Origin: Beijerinckiaceae bacterium
Lineage (GTDB): Bacteria; Pseudomonadota; Alphaproteobacteria; Rhizobiales; Beijerinckiaceae
Assembly: GCA_004564215.1 (NCBI GenBank)
Contig: CP024846.1
Span: forward strand, 2,170,001 to 2,234,000
Direction of reading: 5' to 3'
Length of the DNA stretch: 64,000 nt
A program made the position numbers and the translations under genes. Position 1 is the stretch's first letter. Each line of letters begins with the position of its first letter. The notes under the pieces are model-generated. The model saw only the letters and a list, made by a program, of their open reading frames with translations. It made no database searches and was not told where the DNA came from. Shown here in pieces: positions 43,866 to 47,766 of the stretch.

Positions 43866-43873
43866 CCCCCGCG
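43866..43873 (+). repeat. Left copy of the 8-bp target site duplication (CCCCCGCG)
   Basis: CCCCCGCG directly abuts the left inverted terminal repeat and is repeated exactly at 47759-47766 beyond the right one. Joining the flanks at one copy restores a continuous mltG-fabF spacer. Confidence 0.85.
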
Positions 43874-43896
43874 GGTAGTGTCTCAGTTTGAAATTT
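43874..43896 (+). repeat. Left inverted terminal repeat of the transposon
   Basis: 23 bp beginning GGTAGTGTCTCAG and ending AAATTT, the exact reverse complement of 47736-47758. Confidence 0.92.
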
Positions 43897-44623
43897 AAAC
43901 CGTCGGCCAGATCGCCGCGATCATGGAGCAAGCAGTCTGAATGTTGGCGACCCTTCTGGTAATATTGGCGGGGCCACGAACAACCGTTTCACGAGGTACG
44001 TCAATAACCATAGAAGTTGGAGAATGCGAAACGCCAAGATGGCCTAGAAATTGGGCGGCGTGCATGTGGGCAATAGTCGCCAAATGCCCGTTCGCTTCCG
44101 ACCTACGATTTTCCGCGCCATCGCCAGCCGTTCCAATTGTGCAGCGAATAAAGACTTCACCGACCCGAGTCTCCCCACCGCGCGTTGCAACGCTGGCGAC
44201 TGCGTCCGGCCAGACCGAAACCTCAACGCCAGAGATTATTAATGGGTCGCTCGGATTCGGGCCAGGCTGATAATTGGCCCCTCCGATATCAAGAGCGTTA
44301 ATTGTCCGTTGGAATGTTTCGATCACTCCTATAGACCGAATCGCGTCATCTCGAACCAATGGTGAACTGGCTGGGTCGTCTCTTCGTTGTTCAAGCGCAA
44401 CAATTGCACTGGCGACAATTCGGTTTAATCCAGATGGCGATTGCAGACATGCCGAAATGCAACGGCGCGCGTGCTGGTACTGGATGATGAGCGGTTTGTT
44501 CTGGCCAGGATTCTTGGCTTGGCGTAGGATTCCTATTTGGCCGATTGGTGTCGGCGCAACAAGATAGTCAGCTAATTGCGAAGCAGACAGCTTCGGAGTG
44601 AGGCGAACGGGAGATAATGGCAT
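43895..44623 (-). CDS. Transposon cargo: protein of unknown function, possibly nuclease-like
   Basis: A 242-residue soluble protein without recognised family. It opens with LTPKLSASQLADYLV, resembling the first helix of some RecB-like proteins. Mid-protein there is ISGVEVSVWPD, followed by RVGEVFIRCTIG, and it closes ACSMIAAIWPTV. The order beta-strand, V.PD, E.hxR is faintly like PD-(D/E)XK nucleases, but a full catalytic set is not visible, so this is speculation. Its ATG (44621-44623) overlaps the ATG of the divergent 77-aa gene within the bases CATG. A TAGGAA lies about 9 bp upstream. Its stop codon reaches into the left terminal repeat. Confidence 0.6.
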   Translation of the reverse strand: MPLSPVRLTPKLSASQLADYLVAPTPIGQIGILRQAKNPGQNKPLIIQYQHARRCISACLQSPSGLNRIVASAIVALEQRRDDPASSPLVRDDAIRSIGVIETFQRTINALDIGGANYQPGPNPSDPLIISGVEVSVWPDAVASVATRGGETRVGEVFIRCTIGTAGDGAENRRSEANGHLATIAHMHAAQFLGHLGVSHSPTSMVIDVPRETVVRGPANITRRVANIQTACSMIAAIWPTV

Positions 44624-44855
44624 GGATGAGTTCCTAATCATCGGGACGACTCAAATTGATACACAAGTATATATGTCTGAGTTATCTTCGCAGACATTGA
44701 GAGATAATGGACTCGATGGGGACAGATCCGGACTATATCTTTATGAGGCGAGCGATGACCCATCCTCTGTTGGGATTCGCGTGCTAGCTACAGTTCCAAA
44801 CACTGATGCGGCATATCGCCTTTTAGACATCTTAGGAATCCGTGTGGCCGTCTAA
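44622..44855 (+). CDS. Transposon cargo: 77-residue protein of unknown function
   Basis: A short acidic protein (MDEFLIIGTTQIDTQVYM...) with balanced composition and no membrane segment or recognised motif. GGGAG lies about 10 bp before its ATG. The start overlaps that of the divergent gene at 44623 by 2 bp, and its stop codon overlaps the transposase stop by 3 bp, so it is wedged exactly between them. Codon choice is AT-richer than in host genes. Coding status is probable, not certain. Confidence 0.5.
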   Translation: MDEFLIIGTTQIDTQVYMSELSSQTLRDNGLDGDRSGLYLYEASDDPSSVGIRVLATVPNTDAAYRLLDILGIRVAV

Positions 44856-45742
44856 GCGGCGTCGGCGCTTTTCTTATAAGGACCGCGTTTCTTGGCCGGA
44901 GCGTCCGCATCCATAACCTCAACGATATCCGCCCAATCCATGACTGTCTCGCTCAGGCCAGCGGCCATTGCTGGGGTTACGCGAAGGCTCTTGTGAATGC
45001 GTATCCAATTGTACCAGACGGCATAGATTGCAACCATATGAGCATGGTTCTCGAATTTCTTTGAAAAAGCATTCGTCAGGCGCGTGAACCGCCGATTGTG
45101 CATCCTCATTGTGAGATTCGCCCGCTCGGCATAGGACGTGCTGACGTGCTTCATATCGGGTGAGCCTTCGATCCGCTCCTTGCGGCAACCCACACATTCC
45201 GCAGGGCTGTAGCGACCCTTGGCACTCTCTGGTGACGCGCCATAAATCTTGTTCAGCATGGCGTAATCAACATCCGCGCCGAACGCACCTTCAACAGCCT
45301 CCAAATAGGCTTTGTGGCCGTCCGAAGTCAGTTGGATACGATTGGCGATCCGCGACGCCATATCGTCAATAAACCACTTGGCGCATTCGCCATCGCGGCT
45401 GCCAACAAAGTGCGAAATAAGCAATTTCGTATCGGCTTCGATCGCAGTCCATGTCCAAGTGTCGCCTGCGCCATCAACCGGATTTTTCATCGCCGCTACG
45501 TTCTTTTGTTTAGCGCCGGTGAAAGACCAGATTTCATCGACCTGGACGCGGTGCGCCTTCACGCCGCGAACTTTCGCGTCATGGAAGCCCGCACAAAAGC
45601 GCCCAGCGTCTTCCAAGAGCTTTGAAACCGTGTTGATGCTCGTATCTGTGAGACGCGAAACGGAACGCATCGAAGCGCCTTCGCAGAGCATCGAAAGGAT
45701 TTGGGTGCGCGTGGCGACAGGAAGCTTGTTCATGCCAAGCAT
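44852..45742 (-). CDS. IS1-type DDE transposase
   Basis: A 296-residue transposase encoded in one frame. An N-terminal helix-turn-helix (LCEGASMRSVSRLTDTSINTVSKLL, residues 19-43) precedes the DDE catalytic domain: D69 in VQVDEIWSF, D141 in LTSDGHKAYL and E206 in TSYAERANLTM. The sequence agrees with proteins commonly labelled IS1 family transposases in Rhizobiales. A Lys/Arg-rich tail ends it. No frameshift or internal stop, so it is probably active. Alternative start ATG at 45733. No inner terminal repeats flank it, so it appears to mobilise the whole 3.9-kb unit. Confidence 0.85.
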   Translation of the reverse strand: MLGMNKLPVATRTQILSMLCEGASMRSVSRLTDTSINTVSKLLEDAGRFCAGFHDAKVRGVKAHRVQVDEIWSFTGAKQKNVAAMKNPVDGAGDTWTWTAIEADTKLLISHFVGSRDGECAKWFIDDMASRIANRIQLTSDGHKAYLEAVEGAFGADVDYAMLNKIYGASPESAKGRYSPAECVGCRKERIEGSPDMKHVSTSYAERANLTMRMHNRRFTRLTNAFSKKFENHAHMVAIYAVWYNWIRIHKSLRVTPAMAAGLSETVMDWADIVEVMDADAPAKKRGPYKKSADAA

Positions 45743-45779
45743 AATATGAACTTTCTTGCTTAGCGTCAAGCAATTAAAT

Positions 45780-46298
45780 TCAGAATGGAATATCGTCTGG
45801 ATCCGGTGGTTCCGGTGGTTCCGATGGCGGTTCCGGCTCGCTTCGAATCGAACCAAACCCAGGAGGTGGTTGGTCATCCTCATCTTCCACAACCGTCTTA
45901 TGGCCAAGCTCTATAAGCCCAAAGGTATTAGGAGCCGGGCGGGTAAAAATCTCGCTCCGTCTCACATACGCCGCGAGAGAGCTGGCAAGAGAAGCACGAC
46001 TCTCACGGCTTGAATCCCTTCCAAGTGCTGCCAAAAGCGCCACTATATGGACCGGCTTTCCTTGTTTAAGGATCACATGCCTCGCTCGAGCGACCGCGCT
46101 TCCAGAGCGAAGAATCGATTCGGTGCTTCCTGGTGTGGCTGGTGAGGGCGGTGGGGGAGAAGCATCTATTTCCAGCAGCTTAAGAATATCGTGAAGCGCT
46201 TGAACATACACGCGCGCCGTTCTTAGACGGTCCTCTAGCGTTTGGATTTCCTGCTCCTTTTTCCGAAGACGCTCTGCGATTTTCTCCCTATCATCCAT
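45780..46298 (-). CDS. Transposon cargo: coiled-coil protein with HARE-HTH-like winged helix
   Basis: A 172-residue protein. Residues 1-43 form a charged heptad-like coiled coil (EKIAERLRKKEQEIQTLEDR). A Pro-rich linker (48-58) follows, then a winged-helix segment (about 64-131: ARARHVILKQGKPVHIVALL, then SLASSLAAYVRRSEIFTR) with the pattern of HARE-HTH domains, which occur in restriction and chromatin-linked proteins. An acidic Pro-rich tail ends it. It is divergent from dinD across 74 bp. GAGGG precedes the ATG at 46298. Function unknown; DNA binding is a reasonable inference. Confidence 0.65.
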   Translation of the reverse strand: MDDREKIAERLRKKEQEIQTLEDRLRTARVYVQALHDILKLLEIDASPPPPSPATPGSTESILRSGSAVARARHVILKQGKPVHIVALLAALGRDSSRESRASLASSLAAYVRRSEIFTRPAPNTFGLIELGHKTVVEDEDDQPPPGFGSIRSEPEPPSEPPEPPDPDDIPF

Positions 46299-46333
46299 TT
46301 TACCACACCCTCGACTCTGTATGTGACAGATGA

Positions 46334-46373
46334 TATGTGATGTGACTCCCAGCGACAAGTCAGGAATCACATA
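46334..46373. promoter_or_regulatory. Dyad overlapping the dinD start codon
   Basis: TATGTGAT (46334-46341) and its exact complement ATCACATA (46366-46373) flank inner arms GACT (46344-46347) and AGTC (46358-46361). The right arm touches the dinD ATG. An extra TATGTGA-like copy lies at 46319-46326. Such a dyad in the 74-bp divergent spacer is a candidate operator. I saw no alphaproteobacterial LexA box (GAAC-N7-GAAC or GTTC-N7-GTTC) here. Confidence 0.45.
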
Positions 46374-47227
46374 TGGCGCAAGAAATGACGAATTTGCCAG
46401 AGTATCGGGTTACCATGGCTCGGTTGGAGCAGGTGAAGCGAGAAAGCTCGACCGGAGTAGAATATTGGCACGCCAGGGAAATCAACGAGATTCTCGGCTA
46501 TCCGAATTGGCGAGAGTTCGAGAATGTGCTCAGCCGCGCAAGGGATGCTTTTAGAAAAAACGGCGTTGACCCCTCCCATCAGATTGTGTTGACGCACAAA
46601 CTGATGGGAGTTGGAAAGGGTGCCAAGCTCCGAGGTGACGACTATTTTCTAAGCCGCTCGGCCTGTTATCTCATCACTATGAACGGCGACCCCTCGAAAC
46701 CGGAGATCGCGGCAGCGCAGGCATATTTCGCTGTTCAGACGCGACGAATGGAAGAGCAAGATGCTCAATCGAGTGACGAAAAACGCCTTGAACTACGCGA
46801 TAAAGTTGCGCAGTCACACAAGTTAGTCAGCGGAGTTGCCCAAGAAGCCGGTGTCAGGAGCGCCATGCAGGGTGTGTTTCACGATGCGCGCTATCAAGGG
46901 CTTTACGGCATGAACCTAAAAGACGTGAAAAGGAAAAAAGGAATCCCCGAAAAGCTTCCTCTTTATGATGTTGCTGGTCCGCTTGAACTTTCTGCCAATG
47001 ACTTTCAGATGAATCTAGCAGCCGAGGTGCTCAAGCAGGAAAATGTTAAAGGCGAGCAAAGCGCGATACGAACGAACAAAAGCGTCGCGGATCGGGTGCG
47101 AAAGGCGATGAAGGATAGCGGCGCCACGCTACCCGAAAATCTGCCAATTGAGTCGCCCATTAAGGAGCTGAAGAAGCGATTCGGTGAGCAAAAAAAATTG
47201 GCGCGTCCTATCGATCCTTCCATCTAG
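46373..47227 (+). CDS. dinD: Transposon cargo: DNA damage-inducible protein D (DinD) homologue
   Basis: A 284-residue protein with the DinD hallmarks: GVEYWHAREINEILGYPNWREF near the N-terminus (BRO-N/AntA-like), DDYFLSRSACYLITMNGDPSKPEIAAAQ with AYFAVQTRR (about 103-139), GLYGMNLKDVKRKKGI, and the C-terminal TLPENLPIESPIKELKKR. E. coli DinD is an SOS protein that inhibits RecA filaments in vitro. The ATG is preceded by AGGA at about 8 bp. It is the only plus-strand gene in the right half of the transposon, and its 3' end overlaps the convergent small gene by 20 bp. Confidence 0.85.
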   Translation: MAQEMTNLPEYRVTMARLEQVKRESSTGVEYWHAREINEILGYPNWREFENVLSRARDAFRKNGVDPSHQIVLTHKLMGVGKGAKLRGDDYFLSRSACYLITMNGDPSKPEIAAAQAYFAVQTRRMEEQDAQSSDEKRLELRDKVAQSHKLVSGVAQEAGVRSAMQGVFHDARYQGLYGMNLKDVKRKKGIPEKLPLYDVAGPLELSANDFQMNLAAEVLKQENVKGEQSAIRTNKSVADRVRKAMKDSGATLPENLPIESPIKELKKRFGEQKKLARPIDPSI

Positions 47228-47444
47228 ATTTCGCAGCTTTCTTCGCGATCTCAACCTTCCGCTCTGAGGTGAGTCTCTTAGCTCGCGCCGCGCCGCCCTT
47301 TCGGCCAAGCTCAGCGGCGGCTTTGTCCTTCCCTGTCTCGGCGCCGTAATCTTCTGGCTCTTCGCCCGTGGCAATACGCATGACTTTGACGGCTGCGCCG
47401 ATAACGTCGGCGGGGCGCCTCTCGCCTTTAGGACCGCGAGGCAT
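47208..47444 (-). CDS. Transposon cargo: small basic protein with KGG-like motif
   Basis: A 78-residue protein with MPRGPKGERRPADVIGAAVK at the start and a Lys/Arg/Ala-rich C-terminus, GRKGGAARAKRLTSERK followed by EIAKKAAKSRW. Similar small proteins are common on alphaproteobacterial chromosomes and plasmids, function unknown; nucleic-acid binding is plausible from the charge. GGGAG lies 8 bp before the ATG, and its start overlaps the upstream stop codon (TAATG), so it is the second gene of a two-gene unit. Confidence 0.7.
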   Translation of the reverse strand: MPRGPKGERRPADVIGAAVKVMRIATGEEPEDYGAETGKDKAAAELGRKGGAARAKRLTSERKVEIAKKAAKSRWKDR

Positions 47445-47662
47445 TACTTGTCTCCCGCATGCTTGCGGATAAAGGCGGCGATCTGTTCCCTTAACTGAAC
47501 GGTTTTATATTTATCGTCGATGAATACCGCCTGTTCCGCGATATGCGCCTTAAGCTTATCCGGTAAGCTAGCCCATTGTCGAATAACAGCCCAACCCAGA
47601 CGCCGTATGATGTGTTCGTCGTCGCTTACGTTCGGGGGATTAAATGCCTTGATGTCGTCCAT
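47444..47662 (-). CDS. Transposon cargo: 72-residue hypothetical protein
   Basis: A small protein (MDDIKAFNPPNVSDDEHIIR...) predicted helical and charged, with no family recognised. The ATG at 47662 is chosen because a perfect AGGAGG lies 8 bp upstream; a longer version starting at ATG 47692 is possible. It is coupled to the KGG-like gene by a 1-nt stop/start overlap. The pair's layout resembles small two-gene modules such as toxin-antitoxin loci, but no toxin fold is evident. Confidence 0.6.
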   Translation of the reverse strand: MDDIKAFNPPNVSDDEHIIRRLGWAVIRQWASLPDKLKAHIAEQAVFIDDKYKTVQLREQIAAFIRKHAGDK

Positions 47663-47735
47663 GAGCGCGGCCTCCTGCTTTGCGCTAAGCATATCATGGG
47701 AGATCAGGGACGCGCGAGGGAAAGTCAACCGCCTC

Positions 47736-47758
47736 AAATTTCAAACTGAGACACTACC
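47736..47758 (-). repeat. Right inverted terminal repeat of the transposon
   Basis: 23 bp, AAATTT...CACTACC, the exact reverse complement of 43874-43896. Confidence 0.92.
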
Positions 47759-47766
47759 CCCCCGCG
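47759..47766 (+). repeat. Right copy of the 8-bp target site duplication (CCCCCGCG)
   Basis: Identical to 43866-43873 and immediately outside the right terminal repeat. Confidence 0.85.

Follow-up and report, generated by a model that had tools for sequence, protein, structure and literature searches.

Between fabF and mltG in the genome of a Beijerinckiaceae bacterium (GenBank assembly GCA_004564215.1, contig CP024846.1, positions 2,170,001 to 2,234,000; the whole 64,000-nucleotide stretch analysed is called the window here) lies a complete transposon of 3885 bp, at positions 43874-47758 of the window, with one transposase open reading frame (ORF) and six further ORFs in its interior. An earlier note on this DNA had described an intact IS1-like transposon with six cargo genes, and most of that description has been borne out. 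The inverted ends are perfect over 23 bp (24 bp with the adjoining G/C included), the 8-bp duplications that flank them are identical, there is a single DDE transposase, and no third copy of the 23-bp end is present in the window at up to three mismatches (chance expectation 0), in agreement with the claim that inner terminal repeats are absent. The six non-transposase ORFs are also there, but one of them, the 78-aa gene, is better counted as a core gene than as cargo. The features are, in window coordinates:

43866..43873, no strand: left 8-bp target duplication CCCCCGCG, from the sequence
43874..43896, plus strand: terminal inverted repeat, right end in transposase orientation, from the sequence
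43895..44641, minus strand: 248-aa protein, second cargo bay; Cas4/RecB-like PD-(D/E)XK fold predicted by AlphaFold2; 132 homologues
44622..44855, plus strand: 77-aa divergent partner of the 248-aa gene, an ORF
44852..45742, minus strand: single-ORF IS1-type DDE transposase, 296 aa; Pfam DDE_Tnp_IS1, D69, D141 and E206 conserved
45780..46298, minus strand: 172-aa protein, divergent partner of DinD; coiled coil and C-terminal winged-helix-like part by eye
46333..46374, no strand: operator-like stretch from which the genes for DinD and the 172-aa protein diverge; TGTGA repeats and the inverted repeat ATATGTGAT / ATCACATAT
46373..47227, plus strand: DinD-like protein, 284 aa, main cargo bay; Bro-N, PADLOC PDC-S13
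47208..47444, minus strand: 78-aa small core gene, motif GGxxRA...EIAxxAAxxRW, from a profile search
47444..47692, minus strand: 82-aa protein, an ORF that overlaps the 78-aa gene at the latter's start
47736..47758, minus strand: terminal inverted repeat, left end in transposase orientation, from the sequence
47759..47766, no strand: right 8-bp target duplication CCCCCGCG, from the sequence

The target duplication, together with an empty site in relatives, suggests that the element is mobile as one unit, cargo included. In 27 of the 29 other genomes examined, mltG adjoins fabF without the element, and the two remaining genomes could not be read at this site (L081 is cut by a contig end and L096 gives no mltG match). 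The joined flanks of the window element align with eight relatives, in which homology on the mltG side starts again no more than about 10 bp from the duplication. In this comparison of the junction, which the earlier note had proposed, no single copy of CCCCCGCG is visible in the eight aligned relatives, as the intergenic DNA, a short spacer next to fabF, is too diverged. The picture of an IS1-type unit that carries its cargo as a whole is supported both by this anatomy and by the relatives described below.

The assignment of the transposase to the IS1 type relies on a match to Pfam DDE_Tnp_IS1 (PF03400) that scores 28.2 bits against a cut-off of 24.1 and covers residues 201-240 only, as well as on the conservation of D69 (71/71), D141 (69/71) and E206 (71/71) in the transposase alignment, three residues which we take to be the catalytic DDE set. 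Members of the IS1 family have inverted ends of about 20 bp starting with GGT and generate target duplications of 8-9 bp; the 8-bp duplication of the present group falls in this range, and its end consensus, GGTAGTG(T)(C)TCAGTTTGAA, fits IS1-type ends. The short transposase-only form of IS1 is not matched, the window element being 3885 bp long and all 66 complete relatives at least 2.3 kb. Because such shortness marks simple IS1 members and not transporter insertion sequences (tIS), we class the element as a tIS of IS1 type despite its length. An IS1595-type transposase domain is not among the seven Pfam families matched (up to E 0.1), and no Tn3 transposase or resolvase domain was found in the element's proteins with Pfam.

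Relatives were collected with the transposase from GTDB genomes (54 loci), from a plasmid collection (18 records, four of them fetched) and at the level of the order (46 of 397 genomes matched, 40 regions fetched), the census sample being one genome per species. This gave 91 full-length transposase matches including the window, or 88 distinct ones after removal of three duplicates. An element was counted only if both of its ends were present and the copies of its duplication agreed at 7 or more of the 8 bp. By this measure 66 of the 88 are complete, which answers the check suggested in the earlier note, a search for inverted ends 1-6 kb apart with a comparison of the cargo. Their duplications are exact over 8 bp in 64 cases and 7 of 8 in two, and all 66 are different; the shortest measures 2320 bp and the longest 4708 bp (median 3364), one tandem dimer of 5.6 kb apart. 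Cargo is present in every one of the 66 and none is a bare insertion sequence with a transposase only, so the earlier statement that cargo-bearing forms are uncommon does not apply to this lineage. A second bay, taken as at least 250 bp between the transposase and the right end, occurs in 33/65 elements, and in 29/65 the transposase extends nearly to the right end. Five further elements of the window's genus (L180, L183-L186) enlarge the set to 71 for the comparisons below.

The other 22 distinct transposases lie at contig ends or are without an end or a duplication (23 loci in all, L132 being the reverse complement of L025). When end pairs were sought without the consensus at 20 of these 23 loci (all except L010, L055 and L063), a convincing pair was found only at L165. 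Left out of the counts were L036, L048, L055 (6 of 8) and L063, which have both ends with the duplication incomplete or lacking; L187 and L189 of the window's genus, where a near-full transposase lacks both ends and duplication; the second DinD element, cut by a contig end (L206); and two IMG/VR loci.

Across the group, by the labels given here, toxin-antitoxin or defence types fill 34 of the 71 main bays. The commonest are M78-peptidase/HTH proteins of the RosmerTA type, some with an RmrT-like partner, and M78/HTH proteins resembling PD-Lambda-2_B, with HigB-like toxins beside them in some elements; Fic, HicB, Panacea and a HipA-like kinase with DUF3037 complete this share. P63C proteins, STAND-like ATPases, SDH/ClpP-like proteases and an AbiEii/OLD-like ATPase are found in main bays as well. 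Second bays include PD-T4-5-like, NYN/HEC-09-like and Panacea proteins and a weak PD-T4-9_A match; the second-bay protein of L009, for example, falls just under the Pfam cut-off for Abi_2 and matches PADLOC PD-T4-5 at 6e-19. Main-bay labels were assigned from cluster membership and family searches, those of 'HARE', 'Int-like', 'Xre-trio' and 'OLD-like' by eye.

To provide a control, the same scans were applied to one cargo protein from each of 65 elements and to one neighbouring ORF from each of 62, the largest in either case. With PADLOC at E 1e-10, matches were obtained for 27/65 cargo proteins and for at most 6/62 flanking ones (Fisher p 4e-5), and no flank match was of the toxin-antitoxin type. 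The cargo matches comprise RmrA (13), PD-Lambda-2_B (11), SoFic (2), PDC-S24 (2, counted as the same two Fic proteins) and PDC-S13 (1); the first two groups are disjoint and agree with 24 Pfam M78 matches. The 65 cargo proteins fall into 39 Pfam families and the 62 flanking genes into 83, the flanking families listed being mostly metabolic. Cargo families recur in unrelated hosts, with M78 peptidase in 24 of the 65, P63C in 13, STAND-like/AAA ATPase in eight and SDH protease in five. Nothing in PADLOC matched the HigB-like or the third proteins beside the PD-Lambda-2_B-like ones, the RmrT position of L017, or those P63C, SDH and ClpP proteins that were tested; several systems are therefore matched only in part. 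At the level of sequence families, the cargo of the group is thus enriched for toxin-antitoxin and defence types over neighbouring genes.

Sequence comparison shows cargo and transposase to be uncoupled in this group, as cassette exchange predicts. On a transposase tree of 71 rows, the 18 cargo labels require 45 changes, compared with a mean of 49.4 after shuffling and a possible minimum of 17. Among 64 pairs with transposases at least 80% identical, the label is common to 13, and in none does the cargo reach 60% identity (best 46.7%). Conversely, cargo can be more alike than the transposases that accompany it, as in L021/L149 (83% and 70%), L018/L037 (75% and 62%) and L009/L145 (72% and 63%). 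In most pairs of sister elements DNA homology covers only the two ends, the small gene and the transposase block, and it breaks off at the bay borders; in a few pairs with a common PD-Lambda-2 label there are short extra cargo blocks at 68-84%. L030 and L031, for instance, have transposases 98% identical and three common blocks at 93% DNA identity around unrelated cargo, and L049 and L050, found in one assembly, carry different cargo next to transposases 96% identical. The same is seen in the window's genus, where L180 combines a transposase 93% identical to that of the window with an ATPase cargo and L034 shares pieces at 87-92% and has PD-Lambda-2-like cargo.

The 78-aa gene is best regarded as part of the chassis, because a profile search finds a relative of it in 71/71 full elements; its reading as cargo was dropped on the same ground. 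The best match is in transposase orientation in 69/71, its start lies within 600 bp of the left end in 66/71, and it is never inside a P63C gene with a similar motif. In 15 genomes of the window's genus there are 16 matches, all in or beside elements, ends or element-type cargo. No Pfam match of the protein rises above cut-off; its homologues number at least 7947, and a few of these bear the name RNA-binding protein or YciG. It is basic, and its predicted structure is helical at low confidence (pLDDT 71.8, pTM 0.30). The identities of transposase and small gene are correlated at 0.42. The main-bay P63C proteins of L009, L011, L016, L022 and L026 start with a GGxxRA...EIA...RW-like motif, as if fused to a 78-aa protein.

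In the window element, the main bay is occupied by the divergent DinD and 172-aa genes around the operator-like repeat and the second bay by the 248/77 pair. DinD matches Bro-N in Pfam at 1.9e-8 and the PADLOC PDC-S13 model at 1.1e-88 over residues 14-275. For its 172-aa partner the earlier note had given a HARE-HTH label, for which Pfam offers no support up to E 0.1, the protein's only matches, to other families, lying below cut-off. The region 46333..46374 would be the operator of the pair. LexA-type boxes have the form GTTC-N7-GTTC; no such box was seen by eye upstream of dinD, and LexA-type control was set aside. The DinD/172-aa pair has a counterpart, 56-57% identical, in L206, which is an element of another family. 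The 248/77 pair likewise recurs in a further genome, on a stretch where no ends are present (L211). The 248-aa protein has no Pfam match, and its model indicates a Cas4/RecB-type nuclease fold; in an alignment read by eye, E140 and D146 are conserved and the expected (D/E)xK strand reads FIRC. The 82-aa protein has one relative among the clustered elements (L148), and no match by sequence to a solved structure was found for the 172-aa, DinD and 248-aa proteins. The least certain step of the analysis is that the DinD/172-aa and 248/77 pairs may be defence or toxin-antitoxin-like modules acting on DNA. The suggestion of a cargo that acts on DNA stands as far as the candidate defence family of DinD and the predicted nuclease fold go, the function of the set as a whole being conjectural.

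The explanation that we favour, with a probability of roughly two in three, is that the element is a transporter insertion sequence with an IS1-type chassis and one or two exchangeable bays, in many cases occupied by toxin-antitoxin or phage-defence modules of two or three genes. The chassis would consist of the two 23-bp ends, the 78-aa basic protein and the single-ORF DDE transposase, which would bind the ends and move the whole unit. Where two elements meet in one cell, recombination in the small gene and transposase blocks that flank the bay could replace the cargo, and the module might repay the element by making its loss costly (addiction), by stopping phages, or both. Such a function of the cargo is suggested by family resemblance for about half of it. 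A bolder version is possible but doubtful: that the 78-aa protein and the conserved blocks flanking the bay act in cargo exchange or end choice, making the element a dedicated cassette vehicle with integron-like circulation, and that P63C, the STAND-like ATPase, the SDH protease, DinD/172-aa, 248/77 and a 421-535-aa family are undescribed defence or toxin-antitoxin modules.

Several observations weigh against the transporter explanation. As few as 3 of 200 shuffles reached 45 label changes, so that changes on the tree are slightly rarer than in the shuffles and some co-inheritance of cargo and transposase must be assumed. Pairs with the same cargo also have slightly more similar small genes, and the left part of the element may partly travel with the cargo. 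In 37 of the 71 main bays the families have no accepted toxin-antitoxin or defence role (P63C in 13, STAND-like ATPase in eight, SDH-type protease in five, and others), which is why the functional reading covers only about half of the cargo. The flanking proteins of the control are longer than the cargo proteins (median 488 versus 370 aa). In the window itself, PDC-S13 is a candidate defence family only, and the 172-aa, 77-aa and 82-aa proteins belong to no family. Elsewhere in the genus, L201 has no recognisable end, and five other stretches that retain an end or part of a core gene have no recognised cargo (L190, L191, L192, L202 and L200, the last with only 37 residues of an ATPase).

Other degraded copies hint that cargo outlives the transposase. 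In the window's own genome, a relic at 1383496-1383975 (L004: 2177-4476) has no transposase, one intact end and a broken small gene, and its RmrT-like and M78/HTH ORFs of the RosmerTA type are open. Elsewhere in the genus, RosmerTA-type ORFs are open in L193 without a transposase and with two stops in the small gene, L201, likewise without a transposase, shows an RmrT-like match and an M78/HTH gene that is open next to a piece of the small gene, and in L188 an open ATPase ORF lies beside a transposase fragment. Retention is only suggestive, because core or end stretches without recognised cargo also exist. L190, at 2103961-2104380 of the own genome and about 66 kb outside the window, is a transposase fragment of the same family.

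The bays of families without an accepted role, and right-bay genes that look miscellaneous, such as a ParA-like ATPase in L156, are what would be expected if the cargo were chance passenger DNA in a transposon that tolerates any insert of 1.5-2.5 kb; the recurrence of few cargo families in unrelated hosts, with less than half the Pfam families of the (longer) flanking genes, makes this improbable. It is rather improbable, too, that the cargo is transposition machinery or its control, as proposed for toxin-antitoxin pairs located within the transposition module of Tn3-family elements in the part of the source drawn on (PMC7157771). The universal small gene and the frequency of HTH proteins in the cargo would suit that proposal, but wholly different families occupy the same position of the chassis, and unrelated families that can replace one another are unlikely to be needed for transposition. 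For the 78-aa gene alone, machinery or control remains a good reading. A third possibility is that the cargo is not swapped but diverges extremely fast in place, as in an arms race. Three sister pairs fit this, with same-family cargo 31-39% identical and transposases 86-94% identical (L147/L148, with P63C cargo at 34% and transposases at 94%, L038/L044 and L035/L037), but the unrelated families in sister elements and the pairs whose cargo exceeds the transposase in identity leave it highly improbable. The least probable reading is an anti-defence or host-interference island, which the earlier note had put forward and for which no evidence was found in Pfam and PADLOC, libraries that contain few anti-defence families. 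Phages, too, commonly have Bro-N and P63C domains, and relatives of the transposase occur there, one distant in a Brevundimonas phage and two closer and cargo-bearing in IMG/VR contigs; against this, the recognised cargo is of defence or toxin-antitoxin type, an argument weakened by the same poverty of the libraries.

These two IMG/VR contigs and one phage record are the only phage-linked relatives found, and a phage origin of the group was rejected for this reason. L194 has both ends and an exact duplication, L195 carries cargo of the RosmerTA type, and the unannotated relative in Brevundimonas phage vB_BpoS-Gurke (ON529850.1, 174791-175666) is 32% identical. At L165, a more distant IS1-type relative, the transposase is 39% identical, the ends are different (GGTGCTGTCCTAATT), the 8-bp duplication is exact, and about 3.2 kb of the 4351 bp lie on the far side of the transposase. 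In L160 (5598 bp) the same 2795-bp element is present twice, head to tail, and the duplication TGTGGTTC is found on either side of the pair as well as at its junction, an arrangement that may reflect recent activity, recombination or an assembly effect. L057 and L058 are short derivatives (1504 and 936 bp) with ends, a duplication and only a piece of the transposase, and L027, close to alphaproteobacterial elements, sits on a 4.1-kb contig in a Nitrosopumilus (archaeal) bin, probably through a binning error. In L030, L143 and L014, among others, the terminal repeat encodes the final codons and stop (ISN*) of outward-reading ORFs. A RES/Xre toxin-antitoxin pair (L066, 6883-7721) abuts the right end of an Acidiphilium plasmid element; the 3' end of its RES gene overlaps the element end by 18 bp and the remainder lies outside.

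Transporter insertion sequences are a recognised class in the sections of the literature drawn on here (PMC3129680, PMC7986276, PMC9330008; Siguier 2009 on IS1595 and IS1, as cited in the first two), and the present elements resemble them in joining IS-type ends, a transposase and passenger genes in one mobile unit. Compared with what those sections describe, the present group differs in that no complete element is without cargo, an additional core gene is universal, the transposase matches DDE_Tnp_IS1, and the cargo is exchangeable and biased to toxin-antitoxin and defence types. Tn3-family transposons have likewise repeatedly acquired toxin-antitoxin modules of several families, with pairs reported in 39/190 elements and a 'take me or die' proposal in the excerpt used (Lima-Mendez 2020, PMC7157771). 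Set against that excerpt, the elements described here have no resolvase domain, are much smaller, carry cargo in all complete copies and have it uncoupled from the transposase. Tn7-like elements are larger and multi-gene, whereas the present ones measure 2.3-4.7 kb and have a single transposase with one or two small modules. The likeness to Tn7-like transposons lies in defence systems as cargo, in which they are rich according to the portion of the source consulted (PMC8649781). RosmerTA (RmrTA), a tested phage-defence toxin-antitoxin system in the passage cited (PMC10440598), is the commonest recognised defence cargo here (RmrA, 13/65) and the cargo of the own-genome relic; it is absent from the window element and in relatives is carried by the IS1-type transposon. 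No description of the element family was found in the open-access papers searched; subscription journals and ISfinder/TnPedia lay outside this scope, and a prior description is possible.

The window element is a real and intact member of a sizeable group of IS1-type transporters. If the explanation favoured here is true, one of the simplest types of transposon would be an important carrier of small immune and addiction modules, above all in Alphaproteobacteria. The bay position could then serve as a filter for new modules, any unknown gene pair found there becoming a candidate, and the group would offer a tractable 3-kb model for the question of why transposons carry toxin-antitoxin genes.

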